24,101 bases of DNA from a virus, in IMG/VR virus record IMGVR_UViG_3300035698_000983, positions 1 to 24,101 of that record; one strand, written 5' to 3'. The notes under the pieces were generated by a model that was not told the origin of the DNA, ran no database searches, and worked only from the letters and a program-made list of their open reading frames with translations. A program made the translations under genes and the position numbers. Position 1 is the stretch's first letter, and every line of letters starts with the position of its first letter. Positions 3,021 through 24,101 of the stretch are shown in pieces.

Positions 3021-3868
3021 CACTTGAATGGAGCGGAAGCTTCACCCGTGTGGCAACAAAACGTAAGAACAAAGTCTCTGTTGGTTTCGAGTGGGAAATC
3101 CCAGCTGAAATCCAAGAGCGTGAAGAAGAAATCTATTGTGATTGTGACACTGACGAGGACTACTGCGGTTGTTACTCTGAGTGTGAAGAATACGTTGATA
3201 TGTCTGGAGACACAGAAGACTTTATTAATACCCATGGTTTCCGTACCCACATTGAGTGTGGTGGTGTAGAGTTTGCATCCCCTGTCTTCGGTAACATCTC
3301 TACTGCTCGACGCTTTGCTACTGCTTTGAAAGAAGTATCTCTCAAGGATCATGCTTTGGGTGCGGATGTGGGGGGGTACCACTCTTGCGGTATTCACGTA
3401 CACTCAGGGTTTACAGGCTGGGCTGCTGGTAATAACGGGTATGGCATCCCTTATGATGTCCAGCGGGACTACGAGCGTGTGTCTAACATGCTGAACCGAA
3501 AGTCTTCCGCAGCGTTTGTCCTTGCGTTCTCAGGGCGAGAGAACGGTAACTCAAGTTACCGTACACAAGGTGTCTCTAGCGAGTGGGACGAGGCGGGAAA
3601 TGCTGAACCAACAGAGGACCAGCTAAAGTTTATGAGGATTATGCAAATGGTCCGACCGAATGTCTTTAATAAGGTTGGTACGATTGAGTACCGTCTGTGG
3701 GATACGGCAGAAGATCGACTTCTTCCTGCTATTGAGTTTGCTCATGCTTGCACCTCCTTTGTTACTTCTCGCAGGGGTATTCCCTTCCTGAAAGACTTTA
3801 AGGTTTGGCTTGATAAGCAAGCAGGCTACAAGATTCTGAAACAAGATGACGCATGGCGTCTGGTATAA
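3011..3868 (+). CDS. COOH-NH2 amidoligase, glutamine-synthetase-like fold, first copy (285 aa)
   Basis: Amidoligases of this family (described by Iyer, Aravind and colleagues) use ATP to join a carboxylate and an amine. Seen here: GFEWEI (25-30) as the first metal-binding strand, VEFASP (86-91), the His-rich motif HSCGIHVHSG (124-133) and GTIEYRLWD (223-231). These correspond to the Glu and His/Arg positions of the active site. The ATG at 3011 is favoured over 3005 because AAGGAG at 2998-3003 is then 7 bases away. An unusual insert at residues 39-62 is very rich in Cys, Asp and Glu (C43, C45, C52, C54, C58) and could bind a metal. It overlaps the cyclotransferase stop and is followed closely by a second amidoligase. 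Confidence 0.82.
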   Translation: MALTLEWSGSFTRVATKRKNKVSVGFEWEIPAEIQEREEEIYCDCDTDEDYCGCYSECEEYVDMSGDTEDFINTHGFRTHIECGGVEFASPVFGNISTARRFATALKEVSLKDHALGADVGGYHSCGIHVHSGFTGWAAGNNGYGIPYDVQRDYERVSNMLNRKSSAAFVLAFSGRENGNSSYRTQGVSSEWDEAGNAEPTEDQLKFMRIMQMVRPNVFNKVGTIEYRLWDTAEDRLLPAIEFAHACTSFVTSRRGIPFLKDFKVWLDKQAGYKILKQDDAWRLV

Positions 3869-3880
3869 CAGGAGAAGACA

Positions 3881-5134
3881 ATGACAATTGTAACACTAGA
3901 CCTAGGCCACTGCACTATTCAACAAGACGTTGACACGTCTGGCGGTACATTCATTGGAGGTATCCGCGCCCTGACGTTTACAAGACGTTGGTTTCAGAAG
4001 CTCTCCTTTGTAGCTGCTCTTCCTAGTAACACATGGGGTGCTCTTGCTACCTACGTTAAAGAGAATGAAGAAGCTCTGAAGGCGGACGGTGTTGATTTGG
4101 AGGACCTAGTTTACCTTCAGACTGCATCTACTGAGGAGCTAGCGCAGCCTATCATCTGTATCACCCTAGAAGAAAGTTCTTCTTCCTACTTATTTGAACC
4201 TGTGGTGAAGGATAACCCTACCTATGACTATAATTGCGTGAGTGCCCACCCTCACTTGCCTCTGAGGAGGGTGTCACCTGTTACTGTTTCGGCCCGTACT
4301 GTCTCGCAGCCCTCCGGTCAAGCTGGTGCCCGAGTTATGAACTACACCTTTCGTCCTGACTATAAGTTCATGACCTTACCTAAGGAAAAGTCTGAGTGCT
4401 ACTTCGGACTTGAGCTTGAGGTTAACTCTCGTATCCCTTGGAGCGACCTCTACCGTGTGATGACAGAGGTCGCTCCTTTTCAGGAACCCTTCATCTTTGC
4501 AAAGAGTGACGCGAGTATTTCAGGTGAGTTTAACAACTGCTATGAAATTGTCTCACACCCTATGTCACCTCGCCGGTTACGCCTTGAGTTCTCTCGTTTG
4601 TTCAAGAAAGTGGAGGCTCTCTTGACAGCCAAAGGTGTGGCATGGGGGTCTGTGTTTGATATGAACACAGAGTCTACCGGCATCCACATCCATGTTTCAA
4701 AGGGTGCTTTCACACCTCTGTCACGTACCCATAAGAAGAAGTTCATGCTCCTATGGAACAGTTCGAGTCCCACTGTCTTAGCTTTTACATCAAAGTTGGC
4801 AGGACGCAAGGTGCAGGGCAACCACTACATTAAACCAGCACCGGAGTACAATGGGCGCTCAACAGCTTGGATGTTGAGAGAGGGACGGAACATCAACCGA
4901 CACTCAGCTTGCAACGAGACAAGTCAAACAGTTGAAGTACGTGTGTTCCGTGGCCAACCTTCTATCTCTTCTGTGTTTCACGCTGTTGACACAGTGGAAG
5001 CAATGCTAAAGTACACAGAACAAATGCCTAACTCTTGCCTGAACTACCACTTCCCTGCTCACTTCACAGCTTGGCTTGGTAAGCAGAACAAGAACTCTTT
5101 TCGCCACCTTAAGGAGACTCTCAAATGTGCCTAA
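3881..5134 (+). CDS. COOH-NH2 amidoligase, second copy with N-terminal extension (417 aa)
   Basis: The C-terminal half carries the amidoligase signature: YFGLELEVN (174-182), KSDASI (208-213), YEIVSHPM (221-228), the His motif STGIHIHVS (265-273) and VEVRVFRG (351-358). The first ~160 residues form an extra domain without a recognisable motif, perhaps a substrate or partner module. The start at 3881 has AGGAG at the right distance. Sequence resemblance to the first amidoligase is limited to these motifs, so this is an old divergent pair rather than a recent duplication. The end overlaps the amidotransferase start by 10 bases (ATGTGCCTAA), which suggests coupled translation. It may add a different amino acid or ammonia to the same substrate; that is inference. 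Confidence 0.82.
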   Translation: MTIVTLDLGHCTIQQDVDTSGGTFIGGIRALTFTRRWFQKLSFVAALPSNTWGALATYVKENEEALKADGVDLEDLVYLQTASTEELAQPIICITLEESSSSYLFEPVVKDNPTYDYNCVSAHPHLPLRRVSPVTVSARTVSQPSGQAGARVMNYTFRPDYKFMTLPKEKSECYFGLELEVNSRIPWSDLYRVMTEVAPFQEPFIFAKSDASISGEFNNCYEIVSHPMSPRRLRLEFSRLFKKVEALLTAKGVAWGSVFDMNTESTGIHIHVSKGAFTPLSRTHKKKFMLLWNSSSPTVLAFTSKLAGRKVQGNHYIKPAPEYNGRSTAWMLREGRNINRHSACNETSQTVEVRVFRGQPSISSVFHAVDTVEAMLKYTEQMPNSCLNYHFPAHFTAWLGKQNKNSFRHLKETLKCA

Positions 5135-7187: not shown

Positions 7188-8279
7188 ATGAAATACACGC
7201 GAGAGTACAAGGTGAACGGAGAGAAACGATGGCAGTTTGTATGTCCCCGTGATGTCGTAGCTGCCGGAGTTGCTAAGTCGCAGGTGTTTGATGACGGACG
7301 GATAGCTCGTTTTGAGATACCAAAGCTTATCACTCTTGTAGACCTGTATCGTAGCGGAGACATTAAGGAAGGCACTATAGGTACTCACTCCCTGATGGTG
7401 CACCTACTAAACCACTACATACGTACTGACTACTACCGTCAGTTGGCTGGCTCCTCACAGAAACAATACGAGTCTGTCTTAGGGTCATGCCTAGCCACCC
7501 CAGTAAACAGTAAGACCTTTGGTGACATCAAGGTGACAGAGGTAGACACTAAGCTATGCCGTGACTTGTACACACAGTGGACCACCGATGGTTCTGTGTC
7601 CTTGTCTAACACCAAGGCTCGTGTCTTGTCAGTACTGTTGAACTACGCAGTGAGCATTGAGTTACTCGTAAACAACCCAATGGCTAAGGTACGTAAGCTT
7701 AAGCATGAGCCTACCACCCGCATATGGACGCAAGTAGAGGTAGAGAAGTTGCTTGAGGTAGGGTACCAAGGCTTTGACCTAAGGAACATCACCCTGCTGG
7801 CTCATATGTGCTATGAGTATGCACAGAGACCTGTTGATATCTCCCGCCTTACATGGGAGCAGCTAGACTTTGGTACTAACTGTATCACCATACGTCAGAC
7901 TAAGCGTGGTACTACTGTCCACCTCCCTATTGAAGAACCACTACGTACCATGCTGCTAGAACAACAAGAAGCGTGGGACTTCCAGCCCTACGTTGTACCT
8001 CACCAGACACCAAGGGGTTCACGGTATCACGTCATGAATCGTTCAGAGATGAACACTAGTTTCAATGCCCTTAAGGATGCAGCGGGGTTAGACCCTGATC
8101 TACACCTAGGGTTACTAAGGAAAACCGCAATATCGGAGTTGGTTCAGGCTGGAGTTGACGCGGTAGGTATCATGCAAGTTACAGGGCATAAGAGTATCGC
8201 AAGCCTTAACCCCTATATGAAACACACACTGAAAGGTGCAAGCGCAGCACTCTCACAAAGGAGAAGTAATAATGATTGA
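7188..8279 (+). CDS. int: Tyrosine recombinase / phage integrase (363 aa)
   Basis: Tyrosine recombinases exchange DNA strands between phage and host attachment sites. An N-terminal arm and SAM-like core-binding domain (residues ~60-170) precede the catalytic domain. Catalytic residues visible are R214 in YAQRPVDISRL, K239 in TKRG, R311 in HLGLLRKTA, H334 in TGHKS and Y343 in NPYMKH. In the box II pattern HxLR the His position is Gly308, while a His lies two residues earlier (H306); this deviates from the usual pattern but not all members keep that His. The ribosome-binding site is weak. The last 8 bases overlap the next gene's start. Its presence suggests a temperate or formerly temperate phage. 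No attP core could be identified by eye. Confidence 0.9.
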   Translation: MKYTREYKVNGEKRWQFVCPRDVVAAGVAKSQVFDDGRIARFEIPKLITLVDLYRSGDIKEGTIGTHSLMVHLLNHYIRTDYYRQLAGSSQKQYESVLGSCLATPVNSKTFGDIKVTEVDTKLCRDLYTQWTTDGSVSLSNTKARVLSVLLNYAVSIELLVNNPMAKVRKLKHEPTTRIWTQVEVEKLLEVGYQGFDLRNITLLAHMCYEYAQRPVDISRLTWEQLDFGTNCITIRQTKRGTTVHLPIEEPLRTMLLEQQEAWDFQPYVVPHQTPRGSRYHVMNRSEMNTSFNALKDAAGLDPDLHLGLLRKTAISELVQAGVDAVGIMQVTGHKSIASLNPYMKHTLKGASAALSQRRSNND

Positions 8280-8781
8280 GTATAAAGTGGAAGTCTACTC
8301 TGACGGGAGTAAGTATTGGTTCCTCGAGGATAAGCGGCATCGTGAGGATGGCCCTGCTATTGAGTATTCTGACGGGGATAAGGAGTGGTATCTCGAGGGT
8401 GAGCTGCATCGTAATGATGGCCCTGCTGTTGAGTTGGCTAGCGGGACTAAGCAGTGGTATCTCGAGGGTAAGCGGCATCGTGAGGATGGCCCTGCTACCG
8501 AGTGGGCTGACGGGGATAAGGAGTGGTATCTCGAGGGTGAGCTGCATCGTAATGATGGCCCTGCTGTTGAGTTGGCTAGCGGGTATAAGGCGTGGTATCT
8601 CAAGGATAAGCTGCATCGTGAGGATGGCCCTGCTGTTGAGTATGCTAGCGGGACTAAGCAGTGGTATCTCGAGGGTGTCGAGTATACCGAAGAAGAACAC
8701 CGTCTTAAGACCCAAGGTAACACCTGTGAGGGTAAGGTTATCGAGGTTGACGGGGTTAAGTATAAACTTATGAAGGAGTGA
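8272..8781 (+). CDS. MORN-variant-like repeat protein, copy C (169 aa, five repeats)
   Basis: This is the longest paralogue, beginning MIEYKVEVYSDGS and holding five 23-residue units. Two alternating types are visible: one with HREDGPAxEY/EW and one with HRNDGPAVELASG. Units 2 and 4 are close to each other, as if a two-unit block had been duplicated. The tail is the same as in the other copies (EEHRLKTQGNT to LMKE). The ATG at 8272 overlaps the integrase stop and has GGAG upstream; an in-frame ATG at 8236 is rejected because the paralogues start at MIEY. More sequence variation between units than in copy B suggests an older expansion. Function is unknown. Confidence 0.85.
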   Translation: MIEYKVEVYSDGSKYWFLEDKRHREDGPAIEYSDGDKEWYLEGELHRNDGPAVELASGTKQWYLEGKRHREDGPATEWADGDKEWYLEGELHRNDGPAVELASGYKAWYLKDKLHREDGPAVEYASGTKQWYLEGVEYTEEEHRLKTQGNTCEGKVIEVDGVKYKLMKE

Positions 8782-8792
8782 AGAGATGAGTG

Positions 8793-8837
8793 ATGCACCA
8801 GAGTGTGTGCTACATATGCGGCGAGATTGGAGATTGA
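8793..8837 (+). CDS. Possible 14-aa micro-ORF with CxxC, leader to primase
   Basis: ATG 8793 opens MHQSVCYICGEIGD and stops one base before the primase ATG. A second frame opens at 8786 (18 residues, right behind the AAGGAG of the repeat gene) and ends in ATGA overlap with the primase start. Only one, or neither, can be real. The CYIC motif looks like half of a zinc ribbon, so this may be a leftover of a small zinc protein or simply a coupling peptide. Confidence 0.25.
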   Translation: MHQSVCYICGEIGD

Positions 8838-8838
8838 T

Positions 8839-11421
8839 ATGAAAGAACACACACCCCCTATCAAGACACACCGTACCTGTCCCAAGTGTGGGGCTGGGGG
8901 CAGCTACTCTGTATGGGCTAACGGGGCTGGCTACTGTCACTCCTGTAATGAGTCTGCACATGGGGACGCTACCCAAGAGAAGCAAGTTCAACTCAAGGAA
9001 CCAACACGTATGCCAACAGACCTAGTCCTAAAAGATCACCCGATGCGAGGGGTAGACGCAGACGTAGAGAAGTTCTACGGTGTTCAGACAGGTATGTCTG
9101 AGAGTGGTGACCCTGTCACCCGAGTATATCCCTACCCCCATCGACCCAAGACACGTATCCTACCTAAAGACTTCTCTAAGAACTATGGGTTTACCAACGA
9201 TCATCTCTTTGGTATGGATAAGTTTAACGCAGGTAGCTCGAAGTATCTCACGATTACTGAGGGTGAGGAGGATACACTCGCTGCCTATCAGCTTCTAGGA
9301 AAGACCTTCCCTGTCGTGTCTCTCCCCTCTGCTGGCTCAGTGAAGTCTGTCCTCCAGAACAAAGAAGCATATAACTTCATCAAAGCTTTCTCTGCTATCA
9401 TCATCGCTACTGATAACGACGAAGCAGGTAACAAGAGTGCAGAGATTCTACAACGTGCATTCCCTGGTCGCTGCTACCGTGTTAACATGTCCACTCACAA
9501 AGATGCGTCAGCTTATCTACAGGCTGGGCATGGGTCAGACTTCAAGTATGCTTGGATCAATAGGCAGAAGTACGTCCCTGATAATGTGTTCAACACCACT
9601 GATCAGTTTGAGAAGATCATCCGCGATGACAAGGGGTCTATGTATATTCCTACTGGCATCACTGACCTTGACTCCCGTTTGTTAGGGCTTATGCAAGGAC
9701 ACTTCACTGTGTTCACTGCACCAGAGGGCGTAGGCAAGCAACTACCGAACACGACCCTTATGCCTACACCTACAGGTTTCACAACTATGAGTGATCTTCG
9801 AGTGGGTGATACTGTGTTTGGAGCCGACGGTAAGGGGACAAAAGTAACCTTCGTAACCGAGACACAGAACAACGTACCATGTTATGAATTAGTTTTCTCT
9901 GATGGTACAAGCCAGGTAGCTGGTGGGCCTCACAAATGGGGAGTGTATACCACTTACGACACTTACAAGGTTAAGACAACTGACGAGATGGTAGCTGAGG
10001 GGGTAACCCGTGGCGAGGGGGTGGCTCTTTACTCTGTACCTATCTGTCAGCCGCTCGACTTACCTTATGCTGATAATCTTATAGACCCTTACACATTGGG
10101 TTTGTGGCTTGGTGACGGACACTCTTACAGCGCGAACATCTCTGTTGGTTACGACGATGCCGAGCAGTTCGAGGCGATGTTTGATGTCATTAATAAGAAT
10201 GAGTACGAGACCTGTATCTCTTATCGAGTATCAACTTTAACACACGAACAACTGAGGGTCAGTGGTCTGCTGAAGAACAAGCACATCCCTGAGAAGTATC
10301 TTCGTGCATCCATTGAGCAACGTACAGAGCTATTACAAGGTATGATGGACAGTGTCGGCAGTGTGACCGGACGTGGTTGTGAGTTCTACACATCCTCAAA
10401 TATACTCCTCGAAGACTTTCTTGACCTAGCGCGGGGCCTTGGTTACAAGTGTCGGTCACGAGCTAAGCAGTCCAAATTATATGGTGTACCTAAGAAGATG
10501 GCGTACACTGTGTGGTTCCTCAACCACTCTGACAAGGAGGTTTTTAAGTACGAACGAAAACAGAACAAGGTTGTTAATTGTGAGACGTACCGAGCTACAC
10601 GTAAGACTATTCGTAGCATTACTCCTGTAGCCTCTGTGCCTTCAAGGTGTATCACAGTGGATAATGAGGATCACCTATATCTCTGTGGGGATGCTTACAC
10701 TGTTACACACAACACAGAATTGATGCGTAAGGTGGAATATAACCTGCTTGCTAACCACCCTACTGTGCCTATTGCGATCATGCACCTTGAGGAAACAAAG
10801 AAGCGGAGCCTACTTGGCCTTGCCTCCTACTTCCTCCATAAGGATGTCACTCTTCAAGATACTAAGACAATCACTAACGACAATGGCGACGAAGAGATTG
10901 TGTACTTACCAAGCTACAAGGGAACTTCTGAGGATGAAGTACTCCAAGCTATCAAAGAGTTTACTGATCGTGAGAACTTCTACCAGTTTACTCTAAGTGT
11001 AGACGACGACCCGATGTCTATCCTCGAGCAGATCAGATACTTCGCTGAGGTGTGTGGTTGTCGCTATGTCTTCTTCGAACCTATCCAAGACCTAGCATAC
11101 TCTCGTCAGAACGATGCGAGTATTGAGGGTTGGCTAAGCGAGCTTTCTACTAAGCTGTCTCGTCTTGCTACTGAGCTAGGGGTTGGCATTGTATCCATTG
11201 CTCACGAGAATGACGATGGGCAAATACGTGACTGTCGTATGATTGGTAAACGAGCCAGCGTTGTTATCAAGCTAAGCCGCGATAAGCTAGCCACCGACGA
11301 TGACACCCGCAACACTACTAATCTTGTGGTCGATAAGAACAGACCCGTTGGTCCAACAGGGTTCGGCGGTATGCTTGAGTTTGACCCATCGAGCTTTACC
11401 CTGGGTGAGAAATCTTTTTAG
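8839..11421 (+). CDS. DNA primase-helicase (T7 gp4-like) interrupted by an intein (860 aa precursor)
   Basis: The protein makes RNA primers and unwinds the fork. Domains in order: a Cys4 zinc ribbon (C14, C17, C33, C36); a TOPRIM primase core with TITEGEED (138-145) and IIIATDNDEAG (187-197); and a RecA-like hexameric helicase whose P-loop is APEGVGK (294-300) continued by Thr626 after the intein. Motifs after the intein include the Walker B-like strand YVFFEPIQDLAY and the IVSIAHEND segment. Without the intein the length is 535 aa, close to T7 gp4. The ATG at 8839 has GGAG upstream and the zinc ribbon follows at once; an in-frame GTG at 8803 is less likely. It lies between repeat copies C and D and ahead of the polymerase. 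It ends with TAG. Confidence 0.92.
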   Translation: MKEHTPPIKTHRTCPKCGAGGSYSVWANGAGYCHSCNESAHGDATQEKQVQLKEPTRMPTDLVLKDHPMRGVDADVEKFYGVQTGMSESGDPVTRVYPYPHRPKTRILPKDFSKNYGFTNDHLFGMDKFNAGSSKYLTITEGEEDTLAAYQLLGKTFPVVSLPSAGSVKSVLQNKEAYNFIKAFSAIIIATDNDEAGNKSAEILQRAFPGRCYRVNMSTHKDASAYLQAGHGSDFKYAWINRQKYVPDNVFNTTDQFEKIIRDDKGSMYIPTGITDLDSRLLGLMQGHFTVFTAPEGVGKQLPNTTLMPTPTGFTTMSDLRVGDTVFGADGKGTKVTFVTETQNNVPCYELVFSDGTSQVAGGPHKWGVYTTYDTYKVKTTDEMVAEGVTRGEGVALYSVPICQPLDLPYADNLIDPYTLGLWLGDGHSYSANISVGYDDAEQFEAMFDVINKNEYETCISYRVSTLTHEQLRVSGLLKNKHIPEKYLRASIEQRTELLQGMMDSVGSVTGRGCEFYTSSNILLEDFLDLARGLGYKCRSRAKQSKLYGVPKKMAYTVWFLNHSDKEVFKYERKQNKVVNCETYRATRKTIRSITPVASVPSRCITVDNEDHLYLCGDAYTVTHNTELMRKVEYNLLANHPTVPIAIMHLEETKKRSLLGLASYFLHKDVTLQDTKTITNDNGDEEIVYLPSYKGTSEDEVLQAIKEFTDRENFYQFTLSVDDDPMSILEQIRYFAEVCGCRYVFFEPIQDLAYSRQNDASIEGWLSELSTKLSRLATELGVGIVSIAHENDDGQIRDCRMIGKRASVVIKLSRDKLATDDDTRNTTNLVVDKNRPVGPTGFGGMLEFDPSSFTLGEKSF
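9739..10713 (+). mobile_element. Class 3-type intein in the helicase P-loop, with a probably decayed LAGLIDADG endonuclease (325 aa)
   Basis: The insertion splits the Walker A motif between Lys and Thr; removing it restores GVGKTELM. Block A (LPNTTLMPTPTGFTTMSDL) is clear, but residue 1 is Gln, not Cys or Ser. The non-contiguous WCT set of class 3 inteins is present: W67 two residues after block B H65, C304 at the block F position normally Asp (RCITV), and T323 just before the terminal H324-N325. The +1 residue is Thr. Endonuclease block C is LGLWLGDGH (D126). Block E reads LLQGMMDSVGSV, with Val206 where the catalytic Asp is expected. Splicing is probably active because the host protein is essential; the endonuclease may be dead or nicking only. 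Confidence 0.88.
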
Positions 11422-11487: not shown

Positions 11488-11721
11488 ATGATTGAGTATA
11501 AAGTAAAAGTCTACCTTGACGGGAATAAGTCTTGGTATCTCGAGGGTAAGCGGCATCGTGAGGATGGCCCTGCTATTGAGTATTCTGACGGGATTAAGCA
11601 GTGGTATCTCGAGGGTGTCAAGTACACCGAAGAAGAACACCGGATTAAGACCCAAGGTAACACCTGTGAGGGTAAGTTTATCGAGGTTGACGGTGTTAAG
11701 TACAAGCTTATGAAGGAGTGA
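11488..11721 (+). CDS. MORN-variant-like repeat protein, copy D (77 aa, one repeat)
   Basis: This is the shortest paralogue: MIEYKVKVYLDGNKSWYLEG, a single HREDGPAIEYSDG unit and the common tail to LMKE. The ATG at 11488 has AGGAG upstream. Its leading 30 or so bases closely match those of copy C. It sits in a 300-base gap between primase-helicase and polymerase genes that are normally close together, so it looks inserted or retained as a cassette. Its terminal AAGGAG serves the next gene at 11726. It may be the basal form from which the longer copies grew, or the product of repeat loss. Confidence 0.85.
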   Translation: MIEYKVKVYLDGNKSWYLEGKRHREDGPAIEYSDGIKQWYLEGVKYTEEEHRIKTQGNTCEGKFIEVDGVKYKLMKE

Positions 11722-11971: not shown

Positions 11972-13903
11972 ATGCTTACAGTCATATCGGATTGCGAAAC
12001 CGATGGGTTAGACCCAGACAATCTGTGGTGTGTGGTCAATAAAGAACTAGGGGAGAAGTCTTACAAGGCGTGGGATGTTACCTCAGGGTATGAAACCTTT
12101 ATTGACTACGCTAAGACAGTTGACCGCTGGGTATTTCACAACGGTATAAGCTATGATGGTCCCGTGATAAACAAACTACTCGGGTCCACCGTCATTGATC
12201 CATTCAAAATCTGTGATACCTTTGTTGTGTCTCGCCTTGTTAATTACACAGGGTACAACGGGCATGGGCTGGATGAGATTGGTATCTCTCTTGGACAACC
12301 CAAGACAGTGTTCAACGACTGGGAGAAGTATACTCCTGAGATGTTGTCCTACTGTGAGGATGATGTAGACCTAGGCACAAAGGTCTATAAGAAGTACGAG
12401 AGGTACATCGACGACCCTGCTTGGGCTATGTCAATGGAGACAGAGCACCACGCAGCTATGCTCTGTAAGAAGATGCATGACAATGGGTTTAAGTTTAACC
12501 TTCAGCTTGCCAATGAAGTCCTCCCACAGATACAGGACAGGCTTGATGAGCTGGAGGCAGAGATGCAACGTGCCTTCCCACCTGAACTTAAGGAGGTCCA
12601 CCGTATCCAGTACCGTATAAAAGCTGACGGTGAGCTTTACTCCACCACTGCTAACGCTATGCTTAACTTTCCTAAGACGGAGATAGACGGTGATGAGTTG
12701 GTGTGCTTCAACTGGGTATCGTTTAACCCTGGCTCACACCAGAACCGTATCGACAAACTATGGGAAGCAGGGTGGGACCCTACTGAGAAGTCTAAGTCGC
12801 ACTACAAGTTCTCTCAACGTGGTGCGGTAGGTGAGAAGTGGGGTAAGAAGACACTTACTCGAGAGCTGTACGATACTAAGAAGGAGGAGTTCGGACACTA
12901 CGGCTGGACAGTGACCGACGAGAACCTCGACACACTGCCTAGCTCAGCCCCTCAGGGTGCTCGTGATCTTGCTGAGTGGTTGTGCCTCAACGGGAGACTA
13001 AAACCCTTAGAGGAGCGTATCAGGGAGTGTGAGAGTGACGGACGTATCCGTACAAACTTCTGGCACATCGGAGCATGGACCCATCGTATGTCTCACTCCT
13101 CACCTAACCTAGCTAATATCTCCTCACCATTCCACGGTGAAGCAGTGACTGCTGTTGACCTTGTTAAGGAGAGGTTTGATGGTAAGCTAAGGGCCATGTT
13201 TACAGTTGATGAGGGTAACTACTTGGTAGGTACAGACGCAGAGTCTATCCAGCTGCGTATCCTTGCTCACTATCTTAAGAACGATGAGTACGTTAAGGCT
13301 ATTACAGAAGGAAATAAGGAGGATGGAACAGACATCCACAACGTTAACCGCAGAGCACTCGGACTTGACCACCTTACTCGTGACGATGCTAAAACTTATA
13401 TCTACGCCTATTTACTCGGTGCAGGAGCAGGAAAAGTCGCTCGCATCCTTAGATGTTCAGTACCAGTGGCAAAGAAAGCGATGGAAACTTTCACTGACCG
13501 TACCACGGGACTTAGGAAACTCAAGTCTGGACTTATCAAGCGAGACGCAGCCAGGGGTTACTTTGAAGGTTTGGATGGAAGAAAAGTAATCTGTCCTTCA
13601 GAGTACTTGATGCTTGCGGGGTACTTGCAGAACGGTGAGGCGATCGTTATCAAGAGGTCTAACTGGTTGTGGGATAGATAGTGTACCGAAGAAGGTTTAA
13701 ACTTTAGGCAAAGCAACGTAGTACACGATGAATTTCAAACAGAGGTATGTGGTACTTACGAGGAAGCCCAGCGCGTAGGGGAGTTACAGTGTAAGGCTCT
13801 TGCAGTTACAGGAGAGGAGCTGGGGCTGCTCTGTCCTCTCTCAGGGGAGACTAAGATCGGAAGCCCTTTAGATGGGACAAACAACTGGCTTGGGACTCAC
13901 TAA
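11972..13903 (+). CDS. Family A DNA polymerase (T7-like) with an in-frame TAG at codon 570
   Basis: This is the phage replicative polymerase. The 3'-5' exonuclease domain has D7xE9 (SDCETD), HNG with D62 (FHNGISYDGP) and YCEDD (Y127, D131). Motif A is VGTDAESIQLR with D422. Motif B is RDDAKTYIYAYLLGAG with K474 and Tyr478 at the position of T7 Tyr526. The frame then meets TAG at 13679-13681, after NWLWDR. The same frame continues without a shift through CTEEGLNFRQS to motif C VVHDEFQTEV (H585, D586, E587) and ends at TAA 13901-13903 in NNWLGTH, a normal family C terminus. Without readthrough the 569-residue product lacks motif C and could not polymerise. TAG is a normal stop for at least six other genes here, so this is either site-specific readthrough, a nonsense mutation or a sequencing error. 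Confidence 0.88.
13679..13681 (+). other. In-frame amber codon inside the polymerase
   Basis: TAG lies between palm motifs B and C in the context GAT-AGA-TAG-TGT. The downstream frame is preserved and matches the family, so exactly one codon is affected. No suppressor tRNA with a CTA anticodon was found in the window; the single tRNA reads AGA. Confidence 0.85.
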
Positions 13904-13906
13904 TCC

Positions 13907-13935
13907 TTGACAAACAGCAGTAACTACGGTATAAC
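13907..13935 (+). promoter_or_regulatory. Sigma70-type promoter for endonuclease VII gene
   Basis: A perfect -35 TTGACA (13907-13912), an exact 17-base spacer and -10 TATAAC (13930-13935, 5 of 6). It starts 4 bases after the polymerase stop and 25 bases before the endonuclease ATG, in a true intergenic gap. Confidence 0.75.
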
Positions 13936-13960
13936 TACTTTCATGAAACAGGAGGATATT

Positions 13961-14380
13961 ATGAAGGTATGTCGTAAGTGTAACAAGGAGCAACCCTTAG
14001 AGAACTACTACAAGAGTAAAGCAGGAACAAGAGACGGACGAAGACACGAGTGTAAAGTCTGCTGGAACAGTAGCTCACTAAACTACTACTTCGATAATAA
14101 AGAAAGGATAGTTGAGTCTCGCAAAGACTATCACTACAGGAGTACGTACGGTATAACCCGTTCTGAGTTTGAAAAGATGGTTGAGGAGGGATCAGGCTGC
14201 GAGGTCTGTGGGTCTGAACCTGTTGTGCTGGACCACTGCCACGACTCAGGAACTCTACGAGGTCTACTGTGTAACCAATGTAACCAGGCTTTAGGCTTAC
14301 TAAAGGATGATACAAAACGTATAGTAAAGCTGTCAGAGTACATGCTCAAACACCTACACCTAAAGAAACACACACACTAA
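13961..14380 (+). CDS. Recombination endonuclease VII-like HNH nuclease (139 aa)
   Basis: The C-terminal core CEVCGSEPVVLDHCHDSG plus LRGLLCNQCNQALGLLKDD is the endonuclease VII/HNH signature: two CxxC zinc pairs around a DHCH catalytic segment and the family-typical LLCNxCNxALG. An N-terminal zinc ribbon (CRKC and CKVC) precedes it. Family members cleave branched DNA such as Holliday junctions, as T4 gp49 does during packaging. Phages also carry related HNH genes as free-standing homing enzymes, which remains possible given its location right after the polymerase. The ATG at 13961 has a strong AGGAGG 5 bases upstream; an in-frame TTG at 13907 is the promoter -35 and is rejected. Confidence 0.88.
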   Translation: MKVCRKCNKEQPLENYYKSKAGTRDGRRHECKVCWNSSSLNYYFDNKERIVESRKDYHYRSTYGITRSEFEKMVEEGSGCEVCGSEPVVLDHCHDSGTLRGLLCNQCNQALGLLKDDTKRIVKLSEYMLKHLHLKKHTH

Positions 14381-23112: not shown

Positions 23113-23324
23113 GTGTCGTTGCAGTGACAACTTTCAAGGGGAGAGCCTTCGGGGTCTACGTCTCGGAGAAGAAGGCTAAAGCTGCTGTCACTACCTTTTT
23201 ACTCGAGGGTCTCCACCTCTCAGAGAAAGAAGCAGAAGTGTACATGGGGGACTTCACCTTCACAGAAGTGTACTTCCAGGAGTACGAAGACTTGAAGCAC
23301 CGTATGGAAGGACTAGAGAAGTAA
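23109..23324 (+). CDS. Protein of unknown function (71 aa)
   Basis: The likely start is GTG 23109 in a GTGA overlap with DUF3310, with AAGGAG 9 bases upstream. The sequence SVVAVTTFKGRAFGVYVSEK, then KEAEVYMGDFTFTEVYFQEY, gives strand, helix and strand with an acidic helical end. No family is recognised. Its stop overlaps the PhoH start (TAATG). Confidence 0.6.
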   Translation: MSVVAVTTFKGRAFGVYVSEKKAKAAVTTFLLEGLHLSEKEAEVYMGDFTFTEVYFQEYEDLKHRMEGLEK

Positions 23325-24101
23325 TGACCCAGCAGAAAGCAAAGCCAAAGCTTACCCGAGTAACCACTAAGCATGACGTAGCAAAGAAAGCTATCTCGAT
23401 CACACCTAAGACAGAGAACCAAGGAGAATACATCAAAGCTCTTACGTCTTCTAATCAAGTGGTAGTCTTCGGGCCTTCAGGCTGTAAGTCAGGAGACACA
23501 GTCGTTCACTACCGCAGAGGCAAACGTAACAGCTCCCGTAGTTTGCCTCTCAAAGACTTTGTATCCAAGTACAACGGAGGAACAGACCACGTTGGCCGTA
23601 AGTGGGATAGAAGTATTGACACCTACGTGCAGTCCTATAACGAGGAAACTAACCGTGTGTTTTATAACAAGGTAGAAGGAGCTTGGGAGACAGGTTTTAA
23701 ACACAGTGTAAAAATCACCACTTTTACACAAGGTGACGTAAAGATCACTCTTGATGACAGTGTCCTCCTTCATGATGGAACCTTTAAGAAAGCCGGAGAA
23801 GTTGTTGTTGGTGATTGGCTTCTTTGTAAAGGGGATATGAACAGCGTATCCAAAGGCTCCTCTTTAAAGAAAATAACAAAGAAAAAGCGCAGCACTATTG
23901 AGGGTCTAAAGTATTACTCAGGGGGCTGGAACAAGTCTGTTGTCTCAAATGGTATTCGTTATGATTACCGTAGGAACCACAAAGCTCGTCTTGTACTAGA
24001 GGCGGACGCAAACGGTGTGTCCCTTGATGAGTACGTGCTGGCTCTACGGACAGACCCAGAGCATACCTATAATATACTTCTTCAAGATGGAGTAGAAGTA
24101 C
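23324..24101 (+). CDS. phoH: PhoH-like P-loop ATPase interrupted by an intein (3' truncated by window edge)
   Basis: Residues 1-53 are the host part: a basic N terminus, then NQGEYIKALTSSNQVVVFGP plus SG, which is the start of the PhoH P-loop (GPSGTGKT in homologues). The sequence then enters an intein at Cys54, so only the first four residues of the P-loop are seen. PhoH proteins are phosphate-starvation-linked ATPases and putative RNA helicases, frequent in marine phages. ATG 23324 overlaps the upstream stop. The identification as PhoH rests on the short EYIKAL...VVFGPSG region and on phage gene content, so another P-loop ATPase is not excluded. Confidence 0.7.
   Translation, partial: MTQQKAKPKLTRVTTKHDVAKKAISITPKTENQGEYIKALTSSNQVVVFGPSGCKSGDTVVHYRRGKRNSSRSLPLKDFVSKYNGGTDHVGRKWDRSIDTYVQSYNEETNRVFYNKVEGAWETGFKHSVKITTFTQGDVKITLDDSVLLHDGTFKKAGEVVVGDWLLCKGDMNSVSKGSSLKKITKKKRSTIEGLKYYSGGWNKSVVSNGIRYDYRRNHKARLVLEADANGVSLDEYVLALRTDPEHTYNILLQDGVEV
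23483..24101 (+). mobile_element. Class 1-type intein in the PhoH P-loop (3' truncated)
   Basis: The intein begins with Cys (CKSGDTVVHYRRGKR), a standard block A, between Gly of GPSG and the expected TGKT. Block B is KITLDDSVLLHDG at residues ~87-99, followed by KAGEVVVGDWLLC. The usual TxxH has Asp92 in place of His (T89-L-D-D92). The portion in view (about 206 residues) then becomes Lys-rich (SLKKITKKKRSTIEGLKYYS), which could open an endonuclease domain. The C-terminal blocks lie outside the window. Confidence 0.75.

Follow-up and report, generated by a model that had tools for sequence, protein, structure and literature searches.

The window analyzed here, an entire viral record of 24,101 bases, carries a primase-helicase gene whose reading frame is open from position 8803; comparison with relatives points to the ATG at 8839, not the GTG at 8803, as its likely start. 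The helicase matches PHROG 239 (DNA primase/helicase) with E = 6.4e-88, and Pfam recognizes Toprim_2 in the part before the insertion described below (E = 7.5e-8) and DnaB_C in the part after it (E = 3.1e-7). The closest named phages for the helicase and polymerase genes are Roseobacter phages CRP-4 and CRP-5, Lentibacter phage ICBM2, and phage T5S1-k141_653015. CRP-4 and T5S1-k141 are classified in the Zobellviridae, Cobavirinae, and, as judged by these matches, the window phage is a relative of that group. The gene is laid out as follows.

8803-11421, plus strand: primase-helicase open reading frame, 872 amino acids including the intein
8839-9738, plus strand: N-extein, the N-terminal part of the primase-helicase, ending in the P-loop (...APEGVGK); Toprim_2 and PHROG 239 matches
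9739-10713, plus strand: class 3 intein of 325 amino acids, Gln1 to Asn325, in frame and open
10714-11421, plus strand: C-extein, the remainder of the DnaB_C helicase domain from the P-loop Thr (+1); placed by Pfam DnaB_C and by relatives with an empty site

The insertion site

Translation of positions 9739 to 10713 gives exactly 325 residues, Q1 to N325, in an open frame, which bears out the preliminary description of an insert in the helicase. In IMG/VR, 67 of the 80 helicase loci most similar to the window's are gapless at the insertion point and read (A)PEG(V/I)GK-TE(L/F)M, where the hyphen marks the site. Because these intein-free relatives read through exactly there, the ends of the intein, as placed by this comparison, are correct to the residue. 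The continuous GK-T of the empty sites also upholds the earlier claim that the P-loop is split between Lys and Thr. The nearest intein-free locus, L016, is 91% and 94% identical to the window on the two sides of the site, and the helicase of Roseobacter phage CRP-4 likewise has no intein.

Class assignment

The positions on which assignment to an intein class turns are given below, with two others that enter the argument later.

9739-9741, plus strand: Gln1, not a nucleophile, conserved in allelic inteins
9880-9882, plus strand: Cys48, in the place of the cysteine that serves as redox partner in M. smegmatis DnaBi1 (PMC6195587)
9922-9924, plus strand: Gly62 (block B:7), replacing the usual Asp of DxxH; covaries with a bulky residue 1
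9931-9933, plus strand: His65 (block B:10), present in 273 of 273 surveyed inteins
9937-9939, plus strand: Trp67 (block B:12), the W of the WCT motif, from alignments to class 3 inteins
10642-10644, plus strand: Ser302 (block F:2), where most class 3 inteins have Val; the position covaries with residue 1
10648-10650, plus strand: Cys304 (block F:4), the expected first nucleophile, from alignments to class 3 inteins
10705-10713, plus strand: Thr323-His324-Asn325 (block G:5 to G:7), from translation and survey, with Thr323 at 10705-10707
10714-10716, plus strand: Thr +1, the first C-extein residue and the P-loop Thr

A phmmer search of the PDB returned the DnaB inteins of M. chimaera (6rix, 6riy) and M. 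smegmatis (6bs8) with E values of 2e-23 to 5e-20. These three solved structures, well ahead of other matches, are all class 3; the tree used below was built from class 3 inteins only. With both splicing halves aligned and a lowest E value of 1.9e-23, the resemblance to solved class 3 inteins is, in these alignments, far beyond chance. The register pairs Trp67 with Trp67, His65 with His65, Thr323 with Thr143, and THN with THN, while Cys304 aligns with Cys124 of M. chimaera and Cys118 of M. smegmatis; the roles of the corresponding residues have been described for solved class 3 inteins (PMC7664689, PMC5222942, PMC6195587).

The WCT motif (Trp B:12, Cys F:4, Thr G:5) is thus complete, as evidenced by the match of W67, C304, and T323 to 6rix and 6bs8 and to 272 other inteins. 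This is what the preliminary description had proposed, and Cys304 and Trp67 indeed fall at F:4 and B:12, in register with both the solved inteins and a 273-intein survey. The remaining conserved positions, His B:10, His G:6, Asn G:7, and Ser or Thr at +1, are represented by H65, H324, N325, and T+1. Class 3 inteins need no nucleophile at residue 1, and translation confirms the earlier reading of Gln there and of Thr at +1. A class 1 assignment, which needs Cys, Ser, or Thr at residue 1, was ruled out by Gln1 and the complete WCT motif; the latter also led to the rejection of class 2. In pairs that include the window, pN across the intein is 0.14 to 0.26 against a pS of 0.72 to 0.86, so amino-acid change, by this measure, is held low.

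Predicted fold and nested endonuclease

An AlphaFold2 model of the intein, built from an alignment of 64 window and locus inteins with phage-collection rows left out, reached a pLDDT of 96.3 and a pTM of 0.93. VIA-align matched it to known inteins of the HINT splicing fold with Z scores of 14 to 27. Against 6bs8_C, Z was 21.9, with an rmsd of 1.3 Å over 125/125 residues at 40% identity, and the splicing domain lies 1.3 to 1.8 Å from the solved DnaB inteins of M. smegmatis and M. chimaera. Taken with the in-frame insertion and the intein-free allele, this predicted fold marks the insert as a HINT-fold intein. The alignment to PI-SceI (Z 26 to 27, with 26.8 over 303 residues) extends beyond splicing to a nested endonuclease domain, on which the preliminary description is silent.

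10054-10590 (approximate, about residues 106-284), plus strand: LAGLIDADG homing-endonuclease domain, from Pfam Hom_end, model helices, and the VIA-align match to PI-SceI
10114-10116, plus strand: Asp126, catalytic Asp of the first LAGLIDADG motif (block C, WLGDG), from the model
10354-10356, plus strand: Val206 in the second LAGLIDADG motif (block E), MDSDG changed to MDSVG; GTC in place of GAC/GAT, with Asp in relatives

Pfam Hom_end scores 24.8 bits (cutoff 21.1) when the intein alone is searched. The modeled LAGLIDADG helices span residues 117-126 and 192-206, which makes Asp126 and residue 206 the two motif-end positions; the first helix ends in a catalytic acid, and the second ends in Val206. 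Of 273 inteins, 271 have Asp at residue 206, among them all allelic copies that extend over it, in a survey slightly biased toward Asp (two scan patterns allowed Asp or Val, and the others fixed only neighboring residues). In PhoVMA, a Block E degeneration that removes the catalytic aspartate accompanies an inactive nuclease (PMC8966425). By analogy, if the base is real, Asp206Val has probably cost the window copy its cleavage and homing. That copy would then persist through splicing; homing may still be open to relatives whose motif is intact.

Glutamine at residue 1

The survey drew class 3 inteins from viral and genome contigs, of which 273 were left after sequences more than 85% identical were removed. 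Whatever the first residue, H65, W67, C304, and N325 never vary, and 272 of the 273 have T323. Residue 1 is Ala in 146, Pro in 34, Gln in 29, Leu in 18, Gly in 17, Met in 11, and another residue in 18, counts that are not natural frequencies because four scans used queries picked for unusual first residues. In an earlier set of 146 inteins, collected with the window's own intein family as the query, Gln1 occurs in 7. The oddity that the preliminary description implied for Gln1 was therefore overstated: it is found in 29 of 273 class 3 inteins and in every full-length allelic copy. Of the 29, 26 are either alleles of the window intein or members of a Bacillota terminase group. Because Gln versus all other first residues requires 7 changes on the tree, Gln1 has, on this reconstruction, been gained or lost several times among class 3 inteins. 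No report of Gln1 class 3 inteins was found in the open-access literature, although an earlier one may exist.

The first residue is usually described only as a non-nucleophile, and yet it covaries with two named active-site positions. Across the 273 inteins, a bulky residue 1 (Q/L/M/D/E/K/R/H) pairs with Gly or Cys at position 62 (B:7) and with Met at position 302 (F:2), whereas a small residue 1 pairs with Asp at 62 and Val at 302. Among all alignment columns, the strongest associations of a bulky residue 1 are with Met302, Gly62, and position 48. It is found in 51/54 inteins with Met302 (p = 5e-36) and in 41/43 with Gly62 (p = 1e-27), p values that ignore kinship. A FastTree tree computed without positions 1, 62, and 302 yields 14 independent pairs that contrast in residue-1 size. 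Gly or Cys at 62 was concordant with a bulky residue 1 in 8.6 pairs on average and opposite in 0 (sign test, median p 0.004), and Met302 was concordant in 9.7 and opposite in 0 (p 0.002); the result is exploratory, as the "bulky" and "Gly/Cys" groupings were set after the sequences had been viewed. In the first 146 inteins, independent pairs were not significant, and significance came with 272. The window copy, with Gly62 and Ser302, obeys the pattern at the first of these positions and only in part at the second.

In class 1 inteins, B:7 holds the spring-loading Thr of TxxH; most class 3 inteins have Asp there (PMC6195587). We lean toward the view that class 3 contains active-site subtypes, one with a small residue 1 (Ala, Pro, or Gly), Asp at B:7, and Val or Thr at F:2, and another with a bulky residue 1 (Gln, Leu, Met, Asp, or Glu), Gly or Cys at B:7, and mostly Met at F:2. 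Residue 1 would be packed by B:7 and F:2 at the N-terminal junction, with residue 62 presumably set against it, and changing residue 1 alone would be expected to impair splicing. The covariation, of which no report was found in the open-access literature, although an earlier one may exist, suggests how Gln can occupy the scissile bond. It can also be put to the test as a rule, and might help in designing class 3 inteins for other N-terminal junctions. The window intein itself is ordinary for class 3; the family-wide covariation is the added regularity.

Allelic inteins and mobility

Among the same 80 helicase loci, eight (L006-L013) carry a whole intein with Gln1, and two (L014 and L015) carry partial copies. 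An intact WCT motif together with Gln1 is found in three other phage lineages (L006-L009, L010/L012/L013, and L011). The C-terminal fragment in L014 begins after residue 1 and retains the C and T of WCT. Even among helicases about 90% identical, distribution is patchy, with the intein present in the window and L007 and absent from L016 and L017.

The window and L007 differ by about 10% in the exteins and by 30% in the intein, and the window and L010 differ by 20 to 30% in both. Raw identities hinted at transfer, with the intein closer to L010 and the exteins closer to L007. Conflicting trees were rejected as proof of horizontal transfer: the topology of the exteins is not rejected for the intein by a four-taxon AU test (p = 0.68). 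Branch lengths in the intein are out of proportion to those in the exteins (2 delta lnL = 87.9, 4 df), and therefore the L007-group intein has had either a separate history or a faster rate. In the L011 intein (3853-4779 of its locus), 16 residues of the endonuclease domain are deleted directly behind block C, which may be a second way of losing the endonuclease. With alleles that carry the intein, alleles that lack it, and a copy whose endonuclease is probably dead, these marine-type phages offer a modest natural example of the homing cycle.

Other features of the window and of L007

The DNA polymerase A gene (11972-13681, extending to about 13903) contains, in frame, a TAG at 13679-13681; L007 reads TGG (Trp) there. 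Past the TAG, the frame carries a VVHDEFQTEV motif and continues to about 13903. The TAG may be an amber mutation, a read-through site, or a sequencing error. Folding of the stretch after this stop in search of an intron gave no unusual structure, and no Rfam intron was found in the window. In L007, a group I intron (7702-7956; Rfam RF00028, 83.8 bits) lies in the DNA polymerase gene, and the window's gene is free of it.

Stand-alone endonuclease-like genes lie near the helicase and polymerase genes of both, at differing places: an Endonuclease_7 gene (Pfam) at 13907-14380 of the window, and reading frames at 1658-2161 and 5588-6118 of L007 that are HNH-like by eye. Small proteins with an HREDGPAIE...W-LEGE repeat and a weak DUF6745 match occur in several copies (2-250, 863-1276, 8236-8781, and about 11489-11721 of the window), one of them just upstream and one just downstream of the helicase gene. 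A reading frame cut by the window end (23324-24100), with no Pfam or PHROG match, encodes the P-loop VVVFGPSG followed by CKSGDTVV..., which resembles the beginning of another intein, one of the class 1 type with Cys1, at about 23483.

Proposed splicing mechanism and alternative explanations

We consider it very probable that a LAGLIDADG-bearing class 3 intein, its endonuclease probably dead, lies between the P-loop Lys and Thr and is spliced from Cys304 with a passive Gln1. A start at Cys304 is predicted because published chemistry places the start of splicing at this Cys in class 3 inteins (PMC5222942, PMC3196547, PMC7664689); in mutants, altering Cys F:4 blocks splicing (PMC5222942). Aided by His65 and Thr323, Cys304 would attack the Lys-Gln1 peptide bond to form the block F branched thioester, from which the chain would pass to Thr+1. 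Cyclization of Asn325 would then let the exteins join as GVGK-T, restoring the P-loop GVGKT. Gln1 would be passive throughout, fitted into the N-junction pocket by Gly62 and the non-Val residue at 302. The analysis directly establishes the sequence, the boundaries, the residue register, the predicted fold, the family distribution, and the covariation; we infer the order of the chemical steps, the splicing activity, the packing of Gln1, and the loss of the nuclease. The precursor has a divided P-loop, so helicase activity would be expected to depend on splicing; the RadA intein of Pyrococcus horikoshii, also in a P-loop and cited in PMC6195587, is a parallel case. The counterpart of Cys48 partners the catalytic Cys in a redox switch in M. 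smegmatis DnaBi1 (PMC6195587), so redox control of the window intein is a possibility by analogy.

Two observations count against splicing from Cys304 as set out here: Gly62 stands where other class 3 inteins have an Asp62 that is thought helpful (PMC6195587), and Val206 means at least one disabling change in the reading, whether real or a sequencing error. The latter, together with the in-frame amber in the polymerase gene of the same contig, would suit a degenerate intein that keeps its motif and splices poorly or not at all, leaving the helicase to be supplied otherwise or the genome a dead end. A non-splicing pseudogene of this class, Arth_1007, is on record (PMC3196547), but it lacks Cys F:4 and His B:10, whereas the window intein has all its splicing residues, an open frame, and a pN far below pS, and endonuclease residue 206 has no known role in splicing. 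We therefore regard degeneration as improbable. A class 2-like route, in which Thr+1 attacks the N-junction directly and Cys304 is dispensable, would share with class 2 a non-nucleophilic residue 1. It is hardly credible given the complete WCT motif, the class 3 identity of all closest matches, and the Bvi IcmO class 3 intein, in which the +1 residue is no substitute for Cys F:4 (PMC5222942).

A further alternative concerns the endonuclease only and is compatible with splicing from Cys304: Asp206Val could be a sequencing or assembly error in an intact endonuclease. The change is a single base (GTC for GAC/GAT) and unique among relatives, and the alternative is a serious one because another single-base change in this contig, TAG for TGG in the DNA polymerase gene, is also disabling. 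Positive evidence of error is absent, and a search of IMG/VR found no second contig with the Val206 stretch; on balance we lean slightly toward a real substitution.

Comparison with known systems

The mycobacterial DnaB mini-inteins (M. smegmatis DnaBi1, 6bs8; M. chimaera DnaB1, 6rix/6riy) share with the window intein a P-loop-type site in a DnaB-fold helicase (for DnaBi1, see PMC6195587), as well as WCT, His65, Cys48, and THN. They are mini-inteins with Asp62 (PMC6195587), whereas the window copy has Gln1, Gly62, Ser302, and a nested endonuclease. The window intein's domain layout recurs in two LAGLIDADG-bearing class 3 inteins, in the terminase of Mycobacterium phage LittleE and the DnaB-like helicase of Brevibacterium phage Rousseau, which are 36 to 39% identical over residues 19-325. 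They differ from the window in Ala1, other host proteins, and an intact second endonuclease motif.

The allelic inteins (L006-L009, L010/L012/L013, L011, and L014) occupy the window's gene, and the complete copies share its site and Gln1. They are 65 to 78% identical to the window intein (72% over the L014 C-terminal fragment) and, unlike it, have MDSDG as the second endonuclease motif. Finally, a Bacillota/phage terminase-like group (L222, L237, L240, L248, and L251-L277) resembles the window intein in mostly having Gln1 (with a few Glu or Leu), Gly62 throughout, and WCT. In contrast to the window intein, this group has Met302, mostly Ala48, and Ser at +1, and it stands apart in the tree.
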